A DNA stretch of 21,955 nt. Source: a virus. Under the pieces are notes generated by a model. The model did not search any database, was not told where the DNA came from, and saw only the letters and a list, made by a program, of their open reading frames with translations. Both the position numbers and the translations under genes were made by a program. Of this stretch, positions 8,519 through 18,170 are shown in pieces. Every line of letters starts with the position of its first letter. Within the stretch, counting starts at the first letter, position 1. The DNA is taken from positions 1 through 21,955 of IMG/VR virus record IMGVR_UViG_3300008107_000447; one strand, 5' to 3'.

Positions 8519-9424
8519 ATGCGTATTCGTTACTCAGAAATTTTTTATTCATTTCAAGGTGAAGCTGAATTGGCAGGAACGCCTGCCGTTTGGTTACGTT
8601 TCTTTGGTTGTAATTTAAATTGTAGTGGATTCGGACAAAAGAATCCCACAGACCCATCTACATATGAATTACCATTCGAAACATTCGATGTGGATTCTGT
8701 GAAGCATGTCAATGACCTTCCCGTGTGGAAGTTTGGGTGTGACTCATCCTATTCTTGGTCACAACGTTTCAAGCATCTAGCGCACGATGCATCTCCCGAA
8801 GAAATTGCTGACCGTTTAGTTGAAGCCAACAAGAGCGAGCATAACCCACAAGGATTGTTCATTCATCCTGTAACACAACAACCCATCATGCTATGCTTCA
8901 CGGGCGGCGAACCCATGATGCAACAAAAGGCAATGATGGAAATTCTTCGTGTGTTGCGTGACAGAAATAATGCACCACAACTTGTCACGGTGGAAACAAA
9001 TGCCACACGCCCCTTGTCAGAAGAATTAAGAAAATTCATGTCATTTGAATTCCCATTCATGGGAAATGGTAAGGCGCGTTGGCATTGGTCAATGAGTCCA
9101 AAATTGTTCACGGTATCAGGTGAAGATAATGTGGTGAGTGCAGAACACATTCATGAATATTCACTTGCCAATGCTACATCCATTTTGAAATTTGTGTGTA
9201 ACGGGACAAAAGAAAATTGGGATGAACTTGACAATCACCTAAATAGAATTAGATTACTATGTGGGAGATACATGCCAGACGTATGGGTGATGCCTGTCGG
9301 CGCCACAAAGGATGCTCAAGAGGATCCGTATATTGGTGATTTGTGTATCGAAGCAATGAATCGTGGTTATAAAGTTGCCACACGAAATCATTGTTATGTC
9401 TTTGGCAACGTCATTGGGAGATAA
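8519..9424 (+). CDS. queE: 7-carboxy-7-deazaguanine synthase, QueE-like radical SAM enzyme
   Basis: QueE converts 6-carboxytetrahydropterin to CDG using a 4Fe-4S cluster and SAM. The ATG at 8519 is preceded by GGAG at 8509-8512; the in-frame TTG at 8507 sits on that ribosome site and is unlikely. 301 residues. The N-terminus IRYSEIFYSFQGEAELAGTP matches QueE (EMFxTLQGEGxxTGxP). The cluster cysteines are C31-x3-C35, but the third, C74, in GCDSSYSW, is displaced by a 38-residue insertion compared with the usual CxxxCxxC. This split form is known in phage QueE relatives. TGGEP (128-132) is the SAM-binding motif. Next gene folE begins two bases after its stop. Function as CDG synthase is highly likely. 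Confidence 0.92.
   Translation: MRIRYSEIFYSFQGEAELAGTPAVWLRFFGCNLNCSGFGQKNPTDPSTYELPFETFDVDSVKHVNDLPVWKFGCDSSYSWSQRFKHLAHDASPEEIADRLVEANKSEHNPQGLFIHPVTQQPIMLCFTGGEPMMQQKAMMEILRVLRDRNNAPQLVTVETNATRPLSEELRKFMSFEFPFMGNGKARWHWSMSPKLFTVSGEDNVVSAEHIHEYSLANATSILKFVCNGTKENWDELDNHLNRIRLLCGRYMPDVWVMPVGATKDAQEDPYIGDLCIEAMNRGYKVATRNHCYVFGNVIGR
9228..9255 (+). promoter_or_regulatory. Candidate internal promoter in queE, upstream of folE
   Basis: TTGACA at 9228-9233, 16 bases, TAGATT at 9250-9255. It shares ACCTAAATAG and a nearly identical layout with the cassette promoter at 8461 and lies about 170 bases before folE. It is within coding sequence, so chance cannot be excluded. Confidence 0.45.
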
Positions 9425-9425
9425 T

Positions 9426-10127
9426 ATGAAGTCACAACATCGTTTTAACGCATCAGCTATTCGTTCTGCCATGGGCAAGACTGATCCTGAATTGGGATTA
9501 CAGGTACATAAGCATCTTGTTGCTCAGGGTGTAGAGACACCTTTCATGCAGACGGAAGAATATAGTGACAAGAAGATTAAGAAGATTGAAAAACATTTCA
9601 CTGAAATCATGACAACTCTAGGTATGGATTTGACTGATGACAGTCTCCAAGATAGTCCTAAGCGTGTTGCCAAGATGTTTGTGAATGAACTATTTTGGGG
9701 ATTAGATTATGCAGCATTTCCGAAGTGTACTGCCATTGAGAATAAGATGGGGTATGATGAGATGGTTCTTGAAAAGAACATCACGGTGACTTCGGCATGT
9801 GAACATCACTTTGTCACTATTTCAGGTGTGGCACATGTTGCCTACATCCCGAAAAATAAGGTGTTGGGGTTGAGCAAGTTGAATCGTGTTGTTGAATATT
9901 TCTCACGCCGTCCTCAGGTTCAAGAGCGCCTTGCAGAACAAATTTATCATGCTCTGTCATTCATCCTTGACACGCCTGATGTAGCGGTTGTTATTGACGC
10001 CGAACATTTCTGTGTAAAGGCACGAGGTGTTGAGGATCCACATTCCAATACAATCACATCGAAGTTGGGTGGCGGATTCAAGGAGAATCCTGCCCTTCGT
10101 TCAGAATTCATGCATCTCATCAAGTAA
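9426..10127 (+). CDS. folE: GTP cyclohydrolase I (FolE)
   Basis: Converts GTP to dihydroneopterin triphosphate, the first step of both folate and 7-deazaguanine synthesis. Chosen start ATG 9426 has GGGAG at 9416-9420 with five bases spacing; an upstream in-frame ATG at 9363 lies deep in queE. 233 residues, near the bacterial length. Zinc-site residues are visible: SACEHHF (C125, H127/H128) and EHFCVKARGV (C196). Other family blocks are DSPKRVAKMFVNELFWGL, HVAYIPKNKVLGLSKLNRVV and RRPQVQERLAEQI. Placement between queE and dpdA marks its product for deazaguanine rather than folate. A phage copy would relieve dependence on host pterin flux during DNA synthesis. Confidence 0.95.
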   Translation: MKSQHRFNASAIRSAMGKTDPELGLQVHKHLVAQGVETPFMQTEEYSDKKIKKIEKHFTEIMTTLGMDLTDDSLQDSPKRVAKMFVNELFWGLDYAAFPKCTAIENKMGYDEMVLEKNITVTSACEHHFVTISGVAHVAYIPKNKVLGLSKLNRVVEYFSRRPQVQERLAEQIYHALSFILDTPDVAVVIDAEHFCVKARGVEDPHSNTITSKLGGGFKENPALRSEFMHLIK

Positions 10128-10131
10128 TATC

Positions 10132-10647
10132 ATGTCAAGTGATATCAATGTAATGATTGACTTGGAAACCATGAGTACCGAGTCAAACGCAGCAATCGCC
10201 TCTATTGGTGCGGTAAAATTTTCTATCGAAGCAGGTGTGATAGATACATTTTACTGCACGGTAGATGTGGCTGACTGTAAATTACAGGGATTACACATTT
10301 CTGCTGATACTGTGAAATGGTGGAGTAAGCAACCCAAGGAAGTATTAGAAATGCTTCGTGAAAATAATGTATCTCTGCGCGAAGCTCTTACAAAGTTTTC
10401 TCAATGGTATGGAACAGTACAATATCCTACATGGGGTTGTGGTTCTGATTTTGATAATGTCATTATGGAAAATGCCTATAAGGCAGTAAGTATGGTACGT
10501 CCTTGGAACGCCTGGAGAAACAGGTGCTATCGCACAATACGCGAAGTAATTAAATTACCAGAAGCTGAACGAACAGGCACATATCACAATGCACTTGATG
10601 ATGCGTTACATCAGACACATCATCTACTTAAAATCTTTGGGAGCTAA
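10132..10647 (+). CDS. DEDD-family 3'-5' exonuclease (Rv2179c/DexA-like)
   Basis: A 171-residue nuclease of the DnaQ-like fold. Acidic metal ligands are visible: Exo I VMIDLETMS (D10, E12), Exo II GSDFDN (D106/D108), and Exo III YHNALDD with H152-x4-D157. The IASIGAVKF strand after Exo I and the TVKWWSKQP segment fit the Rv2179c-like / T4 DexA group. ATG 10132 is four bases after the folE stop; a longer frame from 10027 lies inside folE and is rejected. T4 DexA degrades single-stranded DNA. Its place inside a base-modification cassette could mean a role in degrading unmodified host DNA or RNA, but that is inference. A routine nucleotide-recycling exonuclease is the alternative. Confidence 0.82.
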   Translation: MSSDINVMIDLETMSTESNAAIASIGAVKFSIEAGVIDTFYCTVDVADCKLQGLHISADTVKWWSKQPKEVLEMLRENNVSLREALTKFSQWYGTVQYPTWGCGSDFDNVIMENAYKAVSMVRPWNAWRNRCYRTIREVIKLPEAERTGTYHNALDDALHQTHHLLKIFGS

Positions 10648-10649
10648 TA

Positions 10650-11909
10650 ATGTTTGAATATGTTGCTTCTGGGTTATCCTTTCTGCGTTGCAACTTTAAG
10701 GATACACATACAGGATATCTATTGGGTGAATTGAATAAAATGTGGGGACATATTCGTGGTAAATATGACCACGAATTTTCATTCCTGTATAACGCCTATA
10801 TTGAAAAGCATTTCGGTGAGGTGTTTTATGGTGCCTATCGTGGTAAAGGTATTAATCAGGTGTATGCCGACTCGGGCGGTCTACAAATTGTCACACAAGG
10901 ATTGACCATCACGCCGGCATTAAAACAGAAGGTGTACGAGAGTCAAGCCATGTACTCTGATTGCGCCATGAGTTTTGATGAAATTCCTGTGAGCATTATT
11001 GGCACAAAGGCGGTACGTTCAGATATTAACAGTAAATATTTTGATAGAAATAAATTTGAATGGTGTGCGCGTGAATCAGGCAGAAATGTGAAGAACCAAA
11101 TTGACACATTCATCGCCATGAAATCTGATGCCAAGCCCATGTTCATTGTACAAGGCGGTGACCTTGACACATACATCAAATGGTGTGAGTTGGCACTGGA
11201 AGAAATTCCTAAGGAATATCATGAACGCATTGGCGGTGTCGCCATGGGTTCAGGTGGTATCGGTAACGGGATGTTTGAAGATTGTAAGCGAGCATTTTAT
11301 TACACACAAACACCCTTGTTTGAAATGAACAATCATCTCCATTTGTTAGGTATTGGTGCAGTATCACGTATGGTACCTACATTGGCAATGATTGAAAGTG
11401 GCTTATACACAAACAAACATATTAGTTATGATAGTACGACCCATACATCGGGTGTACAAATGGGAAGATACTATGGTCCTGATTTCTCTTGGATTACTCC
11501 CGGCAAACACTTCATCAATGAAAATGGTCCTCAGTATTCCATTATCAATGCCGACATCAAGAAAAATGTTCCGTTCTATGATGTAACAGATGAAGTATTC
11601 CATGAGGTCATGAACATCAGTGTTCGAAAGTATCAGGCAAAAACAAATGATCCTAATCCGCCCATTCTTGCATTTAACGCATACTTCACTTCATCAGTCA
11701 TTAACTTTCTACGTCACTTAGATACCATGAGAAAGGATTTTTCACAGATTCATACATTGATGAGTGACGATGAATACAATGCCATGATGGCGTTTAGTCG
11801 AGTTAAAAACAGAGTGGATTTTGAAAAGTGGGAAAATGAAATGGGACGATATCTCCCAAGTCAAGCTGTTCGTGATGGCATACCTGCAACATTACCTGAG
11901 GACTTTTAA
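10650..11909 (+). CDS. dpdA: DpdA-like DNA guanine transglycosylase (TGT superfamily)
   Basis: DpdA enzymes replace guanine in DNA with a 7-deazaguanine base, as tRNA-guanine transglycosylase does in tRNA. 419 residues. Superfamily landmarks are visible: YADSGGLQIVTQG with D74 (the general acid/base Asp of TGT DSGGFQ), FIVQGGDLDTY (Q168-D171, binding the base), and HISYDSTTHTSG with D261 (the nucleophile position). The CxCxxC zinc site of tRNA TGT is not seen, which favours DpdA over TGT. GGGAG at 10639-10643 precedes ATG 10650. Neighbours folE, queE and queD supply its base substrate. The sequence fits a phage DpdA; which base it inserts cannot be read from it. Confidence 0.88.
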   Translation: MFEYVASGLSFLRCNFKDTHTGYLLGELNKMWGHIRGKYDHEFSFLYNAYIEKHFGEVFYGAYRGKGINQVYADSGGLQIVTQGLTITPALKQKVYESQAMYSDCAMSFDEIPVSIIGTKAVRSDINSKYFDRNKFEWCARESGRNVKNQIDTFIAMKSDAKPMFIVQGGDLDTYIKWCELALEEIPKEYHERIGGVAMGSGGIGNGMFEDCKRAFYYTQTPLFEMNNHLHLLGIGAVSRMVPTLAMIESGLYTNKHISYDSTTHTSGVQMGRYYGPDFSWITPGKHFINENGPQYSIINADIKKNVPFYDVTDEVFHEVMNISVRKYQAKTNDPNPPILAFNAYFTSSVINFLRHLDTMRKDFSQIHTLMSDDEYNAMMAFSRVKNRVDFEKWENEMGRYLPSQAVRDGIPATLPEDF

Positions 11910-11911
11910 TC

Positions 11912-12283
11912 ATGATAAAGCGTTACATTGAAGTGACATTTCAGAAAGAAGGTATTCACAAATATCCCGCAGCATTGACTGACCCGAAATTGAAAGATGT
12001 AGAATTTTTAGGATATCCTCATAGACACATGTTTCATTTCCGTGTTCGTGTATCGGTGACACATAATGACCGAGACATTGAATTCATCTTATTCAAGCGT
12101 GAACTTGAACATCTATATCAAGGCACGTTGCATGTTGATTATAAGAGCTGTGAAATGTTGGCAGAAGATTTAATAGAGTACATTACTAATGTTTATCCGG
12201 GCAGAGAAGTTGAAGTAGGTGTGAGTGAAGATGGTGAGAACGGTGCAATCATTCAATATCAACCAATGGGGAGTTTGACATGA
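11912..12283 (+). CDS. Small QueD-like (T-fold) protein, degenerate, between dpdA and glycosyltransferase
   Basis: 123 residues, usually unnamed in such phages. Read against QueD it keeps the whole plan. H16 comes early, then PHRHMFHFRVRVSV with H37 and H39 at the position of the HGH zinc pair. NDRDIEFILFKRELEHL matches GMVMDFGDLKK, SCEMLAEDLIEYI matches PTSENLARWI, and VEVGVSEDGENGAII matches VRVWETPTSYA. So a three-His metal site seems retained, while the catalytic Cys four residues before the HxH is missing (L33). The real QueD lies two genes on. It may be a metal-binding partner or a pterin/deazaguanine-binding protein. The weak ribosome site (GAGG, 10 bases away) and ATGA overlap with the next gene suggest coupling. 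The homology is a by-eye inference. Confidence 0.6.
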   Translation: MIKRYIEVTFQKEGIHKYPAALTDPKLKDVEFLGYPHRHMFHFRVRVSVTHNDRDIEFILFKRELEHLYQGTLHVDYKSCEMLAEDLIEYITNVYPGREVEVGVSEDGENGAIIQYQPMGSLT

Positions 12284-13443
12284 AGATTTTCTATATGGGA
12301 TTGGAATCATATGAATCACGATATACATTGCAACTAACTAAGTGGGCAACTACCACTATGGATCGTCGTGGTGTTGAATATGTGATTGTTCCCGGCAAGA
12401 CCATTGATAACAGTCAGGCAATTTCTGTGGGACAGGTTCTTGATGCACATGGAAGAAGTTATTTCGCTATGTCACAAATGATGAATCTTGTGCAGATGAT
12501 GAAAGATGGGACAGTCACCGGTGAAGATGCCATCTTTTTTGAAGATATGTTTCAACCCGGCATTGAATCGCTTCCTTACATCATGAATCAAATCCCTGAA
12601 AAGGATCGACCGAAGGTGTGGGTACGTTGTCTTGCACAAAGCATTGATCCTGATGACTTTGTTCATGTGTGGGGTATGGCACCTTGGATGAGTAAGTATG
12701 AACACATGGTGAATGATTTTGTTACGGGTGTTCTTGCGTCAAATGAAGAAATGGTGGCACATATGAAGATTGCAGGTTGGACAGCACCTCTCTACAACAT
12801 TTCAGGCTTGACGTTTGACCGTGATGAGGTGAGAAGTCGAGTATCGCATATTCCAGAATTCTCATCTAGAAAGATGCGTGTTGTATTTGCTGCTCGGTTT
12901 GACCAAGAAAAGCAACCCAACTTCTTCATGGATATTGCTGAACAAGTTGCAGAAACATATAACATTGAATTTGCCATAGTATCGGGCGGTCCATTACGGA
13001 GTAACAATCCGGTATATTTGGAACGTGCTCGTAAATTAGAAAAGAGTGGTCTTTTAAAGATTTATGATAATCTTTCTAAGAATGAGTATTATGAGATTGT
13101 TGCCAATAGTCGTGTATTGTTTAATTGTGCATTACAAGATTGGGTAAGTAACACGGTGTCTGAGGCAGATGCACTTGAATGTAATGTGTTGTATCCTGCC
13201 TATCGGTCATTCCCAGAAACGTTTGCCAATGATGCTGAACGTTTATATGTACCTTGGTCACAACAAGATGCCATTAACAAGTTGTTCAGGCACTTGAATG
13301 AACCTCATAGAAACATGGGAAAGATTTCAGCTTGGACATCACAGACAATGGATAGAATTCTAGATGTGATGTTGGGTCAAGGTGAAGCATGGCGCCGGGA
13401 TGATAATCGTTATCGTGACTACACTTCTACAAACAAATACTGA
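12280..13443 (+). CDS. Putative GT-B (GT4-like) glycosyltransferase in the deazaguanine cassette
   Basis: 387 residues with a two-domain GT-B layout. The N-terminal half (about 1-180) has FFEDMFQPGIESLPYIMN, MAPWMSKYEHMV and VLASNEEMVAHM, the last typical of the hinge after the acceptor domain. The C-terminal half starts MRVVFAARFDQEKQPNFFMD, the classic GT4 nucleotide-sugar domain opening, then FAIVSGGP, NEYYEIVANSRVLFNCALQD and VSNTVSEADALECN, in the place where GT4 enzymes carry their donor-binding Glu residues. The start has GGGGAG at 12268-12273 and overlaps the upstream stop. It sits between dpdA and queD, so its acceptor may be the deazaguanine or modified DNA. Glycosylation of another target, such as a virion or host component, cannot be excluded. 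Confidence 0.72.
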   Translation: MKIFYMGLESYESRYTLQLTKWATTTMDRRGVEYVIVPGKTIDNSQAISVGQVLDAHGRSYFAMSQMMNLVQMMKDGTVTGEDAIFFEDMFQPGIESLPYIMNQIPEKDRPKVWVRCLAQSIDPDDFVHVWGMAPWMSKYEHMVNDFVTGVLASNEEMVAHMKIAGWTAPLYNISGLTFDRDEVRSRVSHIPEFSSRKMRVVFAARFDQEKQPNFFMDIAEQVAETYNIEFAIVSGGPLRSNNPVYLERARKLEKSGLLKIYDNLSKNEYYEIVANSRVLFNCALQDWVSNTVSEADALECNVLYPAYRSFPETFANDAERLYVPWSQQDAINKLFRHLNEPHRNMGKISAWTSQTMDRILDVMLGQGEAWRRDDNRYRDYTSTNKY

Positions 13444-13453
13444 GGAGATGACA

Positions 13454-13897
13454 ATGAAATTCTATTCAACGAAAACATTTGGTAATGAGCGTGGTTTGAG
13501 CTGTGCATTTCGTCAATGGCGAGCAAAATCACATTGCAATCAAATTCATGGTTATAGTTTAGGATTTCGTTTCATCTTTGAGGCAGATGTCCTAGATGAA
13601 AGAAACTGGGTATATGACTTTGGTGATACCAAGTGGATTAAGGAATACTTAGATGTTGCCTTTGACCACACAACGGCAGTTGCCAAGGATGATCCTTTGC
13701 TTCCCTTGTTCAAACAAATGGATAAGGAAGGCGGATGCACATTGCGTATTTTTGATAGTGTTGGATGTGAAGCATTTGCTCATATGGTATATGTTGACAT
13801 TGCCCCCGGTGTTGTACACAAGACGAACGGGCGAGTTCGCCTTAAGAGTGTGGAAGTATTTGAACATGGGAGCAACTCTGCCCTGTACGAGGGATAA
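13454..13897 (+). CDS. queD: 6-carboxytetrahydropterin synthase, divergent QueD
   Basis: QueD turns dihydroneopterin triphosphate into 6-carboxytetrahydropterin, the QueE substrate. 147 residues from ATG 13454 (GGAG at 13443-13447; an ATG at 13448 would overlap the ribosome site). The catalytic features remain: HCNQIHGY with C28 four residues before H32, WVYDFGDTKWIKEYL, FDHTT for the Asp-His pair, and VEVFEHG with the pterin-binding Glu. The standard zinc ligands differ: the early His is replaced (SCAFRQW) and HGH reads HGY, with an extra H27 before C28. I recall this SHCxxxHGY variant from bacterial and phage QueD relatives, so activity is plausible. It is followed directly by gp47. Confidence 0.87.
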   Translation: MKFYSTKTFGNERGLSCAFRQWRAKSHCNQIHGYSLGFRFIFEADVLDERNWVYDFGDTKWIKEYLDVAFDHTTAVAKDDPLLPLFKQMDKEGGCTLRIFDSVGCEAFAHMVYVDIAPGVVHKTNGRVRLKSVEVFEHGSNSALYEG

Positions 13898-16659: not shown

Positions 16660-17196
16660 ATGACTTTGAAACTTGAAGATTTGCAATTAATTCATTTTGC
16701 TGACCCACGTATGACCACAAAGCCCCCTGAGTTTGATTTCCAGAAGGATGGCGATATTGCAGAGGAGTTGGCAACGATACTCCATAAGCGAATGTTACAG
16801 TTGGGAGGATTAGGATTATCAGCCAATCAAGTGGGCTTACCTTATCGTGTGTTTGTTTTTGGTAATGCCGAACAGCGATATGCCTTATTCAATCCCATTG
16901 TGATTGGTGTAAGTAGAGAACAGACCACAATGGAAGAAGGATGTCTGTCATTCCCAGGATTCATGCTGACATTACAGCGCCCATCTGAAGTTACCGTGGA
17001 ATATCAAGATGTGTCTGGTACAACTCAACGCATGTCATTTAAGAATATTGCTGCCCGTGTGGTGTTACATGAATATGACCACATGGAAGGATTAAACTTC
17101 ACACATCATGCATCAAACTTTAAGTTGCGTTGGGAACTAAATAAATTAAAGAAAAAGAACAAGAAACTTCAACGCAGGATGAAACATGGCAAGTAA
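16660..17196 (+). CDS. def: Peptide deformylase
   Basis: Removes the formyl group from nascent protein N-termini using a metal ion. All three family motifs are present: GLGLSANQVG (51-59), EEGCLSFPG with metal ligand C95, and VLHEYDHMEG with H137, E138 and H141. 178 residues, close to bacterial enzymes; the C-terminus is very basic (KLKKKNKKLQRRMKHGK). A ribosome site GAGGA lies at 16652-16656. Phage deformylases are known in several marine and T4-like phages, where they may keep up with the burst of phage protein synthesis. It overlaps the next gene by 11 bases and forms a three-gene run with it and the ClpP gene. Confidence 0.95.
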   Translation: MTLKLEDLQLIHFADPRMTTKPPEFDFQKDGDIAEELATILHKRMLQLGGLGLSANQVGLPYRVFVFGNAEQRYALFNPIVIGVSREQTTMEEGCLSFPGFMLTLQRPSEVTVEYQDVSGTTQRMSFKNIAARVVLHEYDHMEGLNFTHHASNFKLRWELNKLKKKNKKLQRRMKHGK

Positions 17197-17569
17197 TGAT
17201 TTTGATTTTGGCTTTACATTCACAGACGATGAATTTTCTTCATCCTCCACATCGTCAGGCACACCTCAACCTGCCATTGTTGACCCAGAATTTAAAGATG
17301 AACTTTTTCTAAAGATTCAAAAATTAGAGCAACAAATTGAAGCTCTAACTGAAGGTGATACAAATGATTTGATTGAACAGCATAAACAATTACTAACAAA
17401 AGAAATACGTGGCAAGTTACAAGAAGTTGAACAATTGATCCTCCCGCTTCTTTACAATCTGCAAAAGAATCCTGACAAGGAATATATTCATTGGCCGAAT
17501 CGTAAAGACATTATTCAAAAACAAATTGAACGTATTCAACAGGTGACGAGACATTATGGACAAGACTGA
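17186..17569 (+). CDS. Conserved coiled-coil phage protein of unknown function
   Basis: 127 residues, overlapping the deformylase by 11 bases and the ClpP gene by 14. The N-terminal 30 residues are acidic, aromatic and Ser-rich (FDFGFTFTDDEF, then a Ser/Thr stretch) and likely disordered. From about 35 to 80 a heptad-like coiled coil is apparent (FLKIQKLEQQIEAL), followed by VEQLILPLLYNLQKNP and WPNRKDIIQKQIERI. I recall similar small proteins in other T4-like phages, without function. The disordered acidic head could be a protein-docking tail. Tight coupling to a protease gene makes an adaptor or cofactor role possible but unproven. Confidence 0.6.
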   Translation: MASNDFDFGFTFTDDEFSSSSTSSGTPQPAIVDPEFKDELFLKIQKLEQQIEALTEGDTNDLIEQHKQLLTKEIRGKLQEVEQLILPLLYNLQKNPDKEYIHWPNRKDIIQKQIERIQQVTRHYGQD

Positions 17570-18170
17570 AATTATGGCAGGTAATAACATTACCGCTTTT
17601 ACCGACCGCCCTATCTCAAAGGTGCACAAATTCTATTTGTCGGGAGATATTAAATCACCCGCTGAATATGTACAATGGTTTGAAACCATTAGAAATTCAA
17701 GTGAGAACGATGTGATTGTAGTTCACATTAATAGTTATGGTGGCGACTTATTTACGGCAATTCAATTTATGCGTGTATTTGCTGAATCAAAGGCAAATGT
17801 TGTGGCATCAGTTGAAGGTGCATGTATGAGTGCTGCTACAATCATTTTCCTTTCTGCCAAGCATTGGGAGATTAGTAATCATTCCATGTTCATGTTTCAT
17901 AACTATACCAGCGCAACCATTGGCAAGGGCGGCGAAATGTATGACAACATAATTCATGAACGCAAGTGGAGTGAAAAACTTTGGCAGGATATCTACAGTG
18001 GGTTTTTAACAGCAAATGAAATTAAATCAATTCTTGATAGCAAAGATATTTGGATGTCAGGTGAAGAGGTTTCGAAGCGGTTACAAGAAAAATTTGCACC
18101 GAAATCTCTGAGAACGCCTAAGAAAACCCCTAAAAAAGTCACGAAAACAGTAAAAACCAAGAAGAAATAA
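17556..18170 (+). CDS. clpP: ClpP-type serine protease
   Basis: 204 residues with the ClpP/crotonase fold signature: VVHINSYGGDLFTAIQFM, then VEGACMSAATIIF with nucleophile S92, MFMFHNYTS with H115, and DSKDIWMSGEEV with D164. Spacings between the three match ClpP. The motif around Ser is CMSAA rather than the bacterial ASMGA/AASMA. The last 25 residues are an unusual Lys/Thr/Pro tail (TPKKTPKKVTKTVKTKKK). Start ATG 17556 has AGGTG and GAG upstream; ATG 17574 lacks one. No Clp ATPase is adjacent, so it may use a host ClpX/ClpA or work alone, for example in head maturation. The operon seems to end here, since a hairpin and a new promoter follow. Confidence 0.88.
   Translation: MDKTEIMAGNNITAFTDRPISKVHKFYLSGDIKSPAEYVQWFETIRNSSENDVIVVHINSYGGDLFTAIQFMRVFAESKANVVASVEGACMSAATIIFLSAKHWEISNHSMFMFHNYTSATIGKGGEMYDNIIHERKWSEKLWQDIYSGFLTANEIKSILDSKDIWMSGEEVSKRLQEKFAPKSLRTPKKTPKKVTKTVKTKKK

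Follow-up and report, generated by a model that had tools for sequence, protein, structure and literature searches.

A predicted GT4-like glycosyltransferase tied to 7-deazaguanine genes in unrelated phages suggests sugar decoration of a DNA base

The glycosyltransferase gene and its surroundings

The viral record IMGVR_UViG_3300008107_000447 was analysed over positions 1 to 21,955 (hereafter the window, 21,955 nucleotides), and it encodes a predicted glycosyltransferase (GT) within a cassette of 7-deazaguanine genes. The genes are ordered queE, folE, an exonuclease gene, dpdA, a short open reading frame (ORF) hereafter called small, the GT gene and queD; the next two ORFs were read as gp47 and gp46. 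The GT is encoded by an intact ORF of 387 amino acids with an ATG start (12280..13443, + strand). An ATGA joins its start to the stop of the ORF lying upstream (11912-12283), and its own stop codon (13441-13443) is followed 10 bases further by the probable ATG of queD at 13454, with an in-frame ATG also at 13448. An earlier, sequence-only reading of this DNA had described the GT as coupled between dpdA and queD; the overlap and the 10-base spacing hold, but the directly upstream gene is the 123-amino-acid small ORF and not dpdA. Relatives of the GT are tied to deazaguanine genes in many unrelated phages, which suggests, as far as gene content can indicate, that a sugar decorates that base.

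The predicted glycosyltransferase

The C-terminal half of the window GT is weakly recognised by the Pfam domain Glycos_transf_1, with a sub-threshold match (4.6e-5, 23.5 bits; cut-off 26.4), and the protein is therefore named GT4-like here and not a curated member of that family. The same domain is matched by 36 of 58 members of the GT family (E ≤ 0.01). A PADLOC search gave no match. The AlphaFold2 model, built from a 58-row alignment, has a mean predicted local distance difference test score (pLDDT) of 87.7 and a predicted template modelling score of 0.87, and forms a complete GT-B/GT4 fold over the whole chain. Fold comparison, which covers model residues 1-368, listed 50 entries that are all GT4 enzymes (Z 22.7-27.7, 295-340 residues aligned), a result that does not bear on families outside those 50, such as the T4 GTs. 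Among them are sucrose-phosphate synthase 6kih (Z 27.7, 340 aligned, 3.5 A), BshA (Z 26.2) and MshA (Z 26.1), and among the viral fold matches the DNA alpha-GT of cyanophage S-TIM5 ranks fourth. A sequence-profile search of the PDB gave seven matches at E ≤ 1, mostly lipopolysaccharide (LPS) or glycan enzymes (WbaZ 2.8e-6, WlaC, RfaG).

Residues R206, K211 and E295 are invariant and E210 is nearly invariant in 58 diverse sequences of the family, which reaches down to 17% identity with the window protein. A motif of the E-x7-E type together with a basic pair binding the diphosphate is presumably the signature of a retaining GT-B (GT4-like) enzyme. The window protein has D287-x7-E295 with R206 and K211, the first Glu being replaced by Asp, and we infer retaining transfer from the GT4 fold combined with this D/E-x7-E motif. 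Judged by its ORF, predicted structure and conserved residues, the window GT is a GT-B fold, GT4-like glycosyltransferase, and the model and fold comparison bear out the enzyme class that had been read from the letters.

A second QueD-fold protein

The gene between dpdA and the GT gene, small (11912..12283, + strand), encodes a 123-amino-acid member of phrog_17812 (5.7e-38) and appears from its fold model to be a second protein of the QueD/6-pyruvoyltetrahydropterin synthase (PTPS) fold. The model (pLDDT 90.8) superposes on Escherichia coli QueD with Z 12.2 (110 aligned, 2.3 A; Foldseek E 8.1e-6). By sequence profile, a PDB search found no relative and hhalign found no link to the window QueD (probability 1.5%), so that the kinship with QueD emerged from fold comparison only. 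The invariant residues include H16, H37, H39 and L33 in alignments of 13 and 34 sequences; two comparison rows, "Baked" (an out-of-frame reading) and "MA9V" (a stretch within a fused protein), did not enter the conclusions. We take H16, H37 and H39 to correspond to the zinc site of QueD, and we take the catalytic Cys of QueD to lie four residues ahead of a zinc His, where small has Leu33 before His37. Because the position of the catalytic Cys is occupied by an invariant Leu, small is not classed as a QueD and thus would be a second QueD-like protein, beside a true QueD, with a different reaction.

A 2023 study by Cui et al. is said to have found 7-deazaguanine and 7-carboxy-7-deazaguanine (CDG) in phage DNA; it reportedly also predicted a DpdA3 family and an enzyme, DpdL, that decarboxylates CDG. 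Should small be this DpdL, it would be a CDG decarboxylase. The likeness lies in the QueD fold and in the loci with small and a short, presumed DpdA3 gene, which are without the GT in 11 of 11 cases; unlike that setting, small in the GT lineages accompanies a long DpdA and the GT. In two phages small is fused to other N-terminal parts (L196:8212-9363, Vibrio phage Bakedbeans; L199:8431-9312, Chryseobacterium phage MA9V-3).

Co-occurrence in phages and metagenomic loci

A tblastn search of GenBank phages with the GT returned 15 records (E ≤ 0.01), namely BUCT-ZZ01 (69% identity), X1, ACP17 (two entries) and 11 PA5oct-like jumbo phages (PA5oct entered twice), with 21-26% identity in all except BUCT-ZZ01. 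These records form four lineages (BUCT-ZZ01, X1, ACP17 and the PA5oct group). DpdA, of the window type or another type, is present in 15 of 15, and so is small, which was found in 26 records in all. In BUCT-ZZ01 small lies between DpdA and the GT, and in X1, ACP17 and PA5oct the GT adjoins DpdA. A fifth lineage, Sinorhizobium phage Phosso, was not caught by tblastn; its small adjoins the GT and its DpdA lies elsewhere. The carriers are phages of Pseudomonas, Xanthomonas, Acidovorax and Sinorhizobium, together with BUCT-ZZ01, which infects Synechococcus elongatus PCC 7942. Among 70 records with the window type of DpdA, four (BUCT-ZZ01, X1, ACP17) match the GT and 66 (Vibrio, Stenotrophomonas, pf16) have no tblastn match; for three of these 66, KVP40, Moby and pf16, a more sensitive profile also found no GT.

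Members of the GT family are common among phages, T4-like and jumbo phages included. In metagenomic viral contigs one scan found 396 GT-matching stretches, another at least 545, and a scan for distant members 56. The main count was made with purpose-built hidden Markov models (HMMs) on loci in which the GT is flanked by 7 kb or more on either side, which gave 81 loci with 75 distinct GT proteins. These loci contain small in 80 cases, DpdA (two HMM types) in 71, FolE in 74 and a full-length QueC in none, so that the pairing with dpdA beyond the window's phage, raised by the sequence-only reading, is found widely in both named and metagenomic phages. Separated by distance from the window GT, the 49 close loci contain small (49), DpdA (49), FolE (48), QueE (28), QueD (25) and a GalE-like gene (46), and the 32 distant loci contain small (31), DpdA (22), FolE (26), QueE (25), QueD (13) and a GalE-like gene (3), with QueC in neither set. 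Over 170 loci from the GT scans, small shares the strand of the GT wherever it is seen (158 of 158, within 1 kb in 131), as does DpdA (139 of 139); small is the most faithful partner gene of the GT. The exonuclease, sigma, UvsW, gp46/47, gp23, peptide deformylase and ClpP genes were detected in none of 74 loci (L011-L084), and in the same loci the window type of DpdA was not detected while the other type was. No fewer than five named lineages show the pattern of GT, small and DpdA, which extends over two to three DpdA kinds.

When about 85,000 species genomes of bacteria and archaea were scanned by pattern, 591 stretches matched, of which five encode a GT relative, all on contigs of metagenome-assembled genomes; within the reach of that scan, the GT family looks mainly viral. 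These contigs (L282-L286), although labelled bacterial, encode small and the GT in five of five cases and DpdA in four of five, and are probably phage contigs binned with bacteria.

Types of DpdA beside the glycosyltransferase

The window dpdA (10650..11909, + strand) encodes a putative DpdA2-like guanine transglycosylase, which shares 35% identity over residues 41-275 with Vibrio phage nt-1 in its DpdA region (E 1e-30), matches phrog_10773 and carries DSGG, QG and HxLG motifs. Two divergent DpdA HMM types occur among the GT loci, and a third kind is represented by a queuine-transferase-like protein of phrog_887 just downstream of the GT in L182. Two less fully flanked loci (L181 and L184) encode proteins with a similar DSGAF motif. 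A marine and jumbo-phage family of DpdA-like proteins (A3; for example L021:6982-8439) has no Pfam, PHROG or PDB match; hhalign connects it with DpdA2 (probability 95, E 2.8e-8), and from that alignment it may be an unregistered DpdA subfamily. The short gene that accompanies small in other phages is probably DpdA3-like, as read by motif. Its hhalign match to DpdA2 is weak (probability 17, E 0.0015), Pfam gave nothing useful, a PDB profile search found no relative, and the copy in phiST is "unknown" in PHROG.

Distribution of QueC and the candidate acceptor

Phages KVP40, pf16 and CP220 encode a full-length QueC, and Moby has a gene annotated as QueC-like whose match is partial; all four are without the GT. 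The small gene is absent from the first three and has one weak match in Moby (13 bits, E 0.008). Eleven complete records with small have no full-length QueC, with a partial match above cut-off in D479 and below it in X1; the complete records were chosen partly by gene content and so give a pattern and not a random test. In a scan of 80 loci seeded with small, a long DpdA is seen in 72 loci, 70 of which carry the GT; none of the five loci with the short DpdA3-like gene carries it, and three further loci have the GT without DpdA in view. Six named phages (phiST, RHph_I1_18, Bakedbeans, D479, Ahp1_CNU-2021 and MA9V-3) carry small and the short gene without the GT, four of them having supplied seeds of the short-gene HMM. 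Taken together, DpdA with QueC goes without the GT (3/3), small with the short gene goes without the GT (11/11), and small with a long DpdA goes with it (70/72). Gene content thereby suggests a rule that could predict phage DNA chemistry from QueC, from small plus the short DpdA3-like gene, or from small plus GT plus long DpdA.

The window's phage was also followed on a 124-kb contig (G001), possibly incomplete; 14 window proteins were compared with their copies there, and all are 100% identical. No QueC was seen in the window, and no full-length QueC was found in 14 GT-bearing records, in Phosso or in the GT loci. Partial QueC matches occur in six of the 14 records. Two of these, above the Pfam cut-off, are on the contig of the window's phage and cover only a QueC-like tail in short PP-loop proteins of 170 and 192 amino acids (L089:2355-2867 and L090:3094-3672). 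Because QueC is absent beyond such tail-only matches, the window cassette appears to be a variant branch and not a preQ0 cassette.

Two acceptors were rejected on these grounds. The first is preQ0 or preQ1 as a phage-encoded base, as no full-length QueC match was found in the records and loci just named and QueF has no match above cut-off in the 14 GT-bearing records; preQ0, which had been named as a possible acceptor, is therefore unlikely as a phage-made base, although supply by the host is possible. The other is cytosine, because no gene of the thymidylate synthase (TS)/dCMP hydroxymethylase family (PF00303) was found in the contig of the window's phage (124 kb, may be incomplete), which agrees with the earlier remark that no cytosine hydroxymethylase is visible. 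A TS-family gene occurs in three of the 14 GT-bearing records and was found in none of the other 11, including the window's phage. If small decarboxylates CDG, as reportedly predicted for DpdL, CDG would not be the acceptor either. The sugar would then be C-linked at C7, or placed before decarboxylation, or located elsewhere; should small have another function, CDG might carry an ester or amide.

Proposed pathway and alternative explanations

We consider it fairly probable that a 7-deazaguanine is made without QueC, that DpdA swaps it into phage DNA and that the GT adds a hexose. The reactions are assigned from the enzyme families, on top of the gene content and folds described above, and the modified base, acceptor atom and identity of the sugar are what we infer from them. 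By the established chemistry of these families, FolE, QueD and QueE would make CDG from GTP. The small protein would then act on CDG in place of QueC, a role proposed because of its QueD fold, kept His residues, lost Cys position and absence from the QueC-bearing relatives examined. By homology to nt-1 DpdA2, DpdA would insert the product into DNA in exchange for guanine, and the GT would transfer a hexose from a nucleotide sugar before or after this insertion. The sugar would lie in the major groove and let the phage DNA escape host nucleases.

Several observations weigh against this pathway. Neither HMM type of DpdA is found in 10 of the 81 well-flanked loci (one of them, L182, is rescued by phrog_887), the GT of L162, another of these ten, stands without any cassette gene in view, and L244, as well as L230, which is cut just after, have small and a long DpdA with no GT in view. 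The loci are interrelated, so the counts are not independent events. Partial QueC matches are above the Pfam cut-off in three of the 14 GT-bearing records (G001, G004 and G009), so that a QueC-like chemistry is conceivable. The GT is acidic (pI 5.4; pI < 7 in 56 of 58 family members) and a DNA-binding face is not evident, an objection tempered by the likewise acidic window DpdA (pI 6.0). CDG, deazaguanine and preQ0 present no ordinary hydroxyl acceptor. A GalE-like gene is found in only three of the 32 distant loci, and no GalE match was found in about 121 of the 124 kb of the window's phage. A measurement of sugar on such DNA was not found in the literature.

A related possibility is a C-glycosylated base, in which small decarboxylates CDG and leaves C7 bare and electron-rich, DpdA inserts the product, and the GT forms a carbon-carbon bond between the sugar and C7. 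A C-glycoside linkage is not known from any DNA modification, and we hold this version to be rather improbable, its weight being slightly lowered because the DpdA3 reading of the short gene weakened and the count of tandem GTs shrank. The most specific rival is a pterin activity like that of BGluT, by which the GT would glycosylate a free intermediate of the FolE/QueD pathway or a host pterin and the sugar would never be in DNA. No DpdA or QueE partner is known for BGluT, a UDP-glucose:tetrahydrobiopterin alpha-glucosyltransferase whose acceptor is a free pterin. BGluT resembles the window GT in its GT4 fold and in acting on a heterocycle from a GTP-cyclohydrolase/PTPS pathway (PDB 5ze7/5zes/5zer), and because a pterin-glucosylating GT4 enzyme is known (PDB 5ze7/5zes), a free pathway intermediate is a real alternative acceptor. 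The enzyme of Synechococcus PCC 7942 (5zes) has the same fold as the GT model (Z 24.5, 312 aligned, 3.2 A), FolE and two QueD/PTPS-fold proteins lie within the cassette, and the host of BUCT-ZZ01 is PCC 7942, the very strain of BGluT. However, BGluT is no closer than many GT4 enzymes within the Z range of 22.7-27.7 and is not among the seven PDB profile matches, the GT tracks DpdA and small while being absent from FolE-bearing DpdA phages without small (KVP40, Moby and pf16), and its carriers include phages of Pseudomonas, Xanthomonas, Acidovorax and Sinorhizobium; we regard pterin glycosylation as quite unlikely.

The GT could also act on LPS, a virion protein or a different DNA base, sharing the operon for expression timing only. 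The profile relatives, mostly LPS and glycan enzymes, would fit this, as would the further ORFs read as GTs near tail genes of the window's phage (L091, L092) and the solitary GT of L162. The linkage on one strand to small (158/158) and DpdA (139/139) across two to three DpdA kinds argues otherwise, since other window genes do not follow the GT, as does the lack of a TS-family gene in 11 of the 14 GT-bearing records searched, the window's phage included; such an acceptor is unlikely. DpdA is a homologue of tRNA-guanine transglycosylase, and QTMAN (GTDC1) and QTGAL glycosylate queuosine in animal tRNA, so the cassette might modify tRNA or other RNA, with the GT making a glycosyl-queuosine-like base. 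These two eukaryotic enzymes resemble the window GT in placing a sugar on a 7-deazaguanine derivative, but they place it on the cyclopentenediol of queuosine, a group not expected from the window cassette. Mass spectrometry detected deazaguanines at a low level (dPreQ0 in about 0.11% of Gs) in the DNA of nt-1, to whose DpdA the window DpdA is related, and the same study (PMC6884629) reports that the viruses it analysed have no homologues of QueA, QueG or QueH, which makes an RNA target very unlikely. A loss of catalysis in the GT, through decay or a structural role, would agree with its sub-threshold Pfam match and with Asp in place of the first Glu of the motif, but appears most improbable given the invariance of R206, K211 and E295, and near invariance of E210, at identities as low as 17%. 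The pathway that ends in a sugar-bearing deazaguanine in DNA is the reading we retain.

Sugar donor and second glycosyltransferases

The donor is perhaps UDP-glucose or UDP-galactose, proposed because a GalE-like epimerase gene lies just downstream of the GT in most close relatives, and the window's phage would draw on the host pool. In the close set (108 loci, with the window's own group excluded) a GalE-like gene is present in 94 loci, and in 89 it starts within 1 kb downstream of the GT. The copy in L059 passes the NCBIfam galE cut-off, and that in L021 is a partial match below it. GalE as a universal clue to the donor was cut back to a hint, in view of the counts in close (46/49) and distant (3/32) loci and of its absence from the searched part of the window's phage.

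A second, different GT-B-like protein is encoded in the cassettes of BUCT-ZZ01 (L001:6650-7993, 447 amino acids; Glyco_trans_1_4 3.4e-5, sub-threshold in Pfam) and of the L208 contig (L208:7360-8715, 452 amino acids), and may extend the sugar to a disaccharide. At L126:4313-4828, L143:2094-2510, L147:7602-7883 and L179:8696-9043 the full GT is accompanied by further pieces from its own family, as if duplicated or broken. Tandem GTs are therefore rarer than a count of two or more GT-like ORFs in five of 243 loci suggests, as four of the five extras are these same-family pieces, leaving only L208 with a full second enzyme.

Relation to known systems

The cassette resembles the DpdA-based 7-deazaguanine modification of phage DNA as set out in the sections of Hutinet et al. 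(2019; PMC6884629) covered here, in having FolE, QueD, QueE and a DpdA homologous to nt-1 DpdA2 and in being placed in a T4-like phage. Unlike the systems described there, it has no full-length QueC and encodes a second QueD-fold protein and a GT instead; a sugar step is not named in the same sections. Like the T4 DNA glucosyltransferases, the window GT is a phage GT-B enzyme beside a base-modification pathway, but the T4 enzymes need hydroxymethylcytosine, according to the part of PMC13216743 covered, and the contig of the window's phage shows no TS/dCMP hydroxymethylase family gene. A glycosyltransferase is mentioned in the covered part of PMC12028318, but in another island. Pseudomonas phage MIJ3 was dropped as a hypermodified example; a 2026 review makes the link, and no DNA-modification passage turned up in the portion of the primary paper covered. 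The sequence-only reading knew of no description of this hypermodification. The searchable literature, outside which the likeliest papers of 2023 and 2024 fall, likewise yielded none of a deazaguanine in DNA that bears a sugar, so its novelty is provisional. If the reading is true, sugars would join the list of 7-deazaguanine decorations in DNA, and phages beyond the hydroxymethyl-pyrimidine world would also sugar-coat their genomes. It is directly testable, because several GT carriers are in culture, with Synechococcus elongatus PCC 7942 and the Pseudomonas aeruginosa laboratory strain PAO1 as hosts.

Other genes of the cassette and the window

The remaining cassette genes are all on the + strand, and dpdA, queD, folE and queE are as earlier read, according to the nt-1 similarity and to Pfam and PHROG matches. 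A QueE-like radical S-adenosylmethionine (SAM) protein, the predicted CDG synthase, is encoded at 8519..9424 (phrog_2076 QueE, 9.4e-48), where the ORF opens also at TTG 8507. It is followed by FolE, a predicted GTP cyclohydrolase I (9426..10127, PF01227 1.5e-62), whose start is uncertain, the ORF opening at 9363, and by an Rv2179c-like 3'-5' exonuclease (10132..10647, PF16473 1.5e-43), which also adjoins the cassette in BUCT-ZZ01 (L001). QueD, the predicted 6-carboxytetrahydropterin (CPH4) synthase, is encoded at 13454..13897 with an alternative ATG at 13448 (PF01242 1.7e-16; phrog_2389 1.1e-36). Downstream of gp46 are a peptide deformylase (16660-17196, PF01327 6.4e-33) and an ORF read as a ClpP-like protease (17556-18170). 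Elsewhere on the contig of the window's phage, a Nol/NodU-like carbamoyltransferase (L089:17967-19421, phrog_1601 1.3e-103) adjoins a row of Cys-motif proteins (L089:7709-17970), which by reading are SPASM/radical-SAM-like.

Other genes recur in the GT cassettes of relatives. Between DpdA and small, L021 encodes a 174-amino-acid protein (L021:8806-9330) whose family matches nothing in Pfam, PHROG or NCBIfam and is found in 45 of the 49 well-flanked close loci and 16 of the 32 distant ones. Near QueD/QueE in some marine cassettes there is a 400-amino-acid protein read as amidinotransferase-like (L071:13108-14310; no Pfam or NCBIfam match). A phosphoribosyltransferase-like protein (L021:12847-13371 and similar, Pribosyltran above cut-off) is recurrent in marine GT cassettes, and BUCT-ZZ01 carries a gene annotated as xanthine-guanine phosphoribosyltransferase; the phosphoribosyltransferase-like protein of these cassettes might salvage the displaced or modified base.

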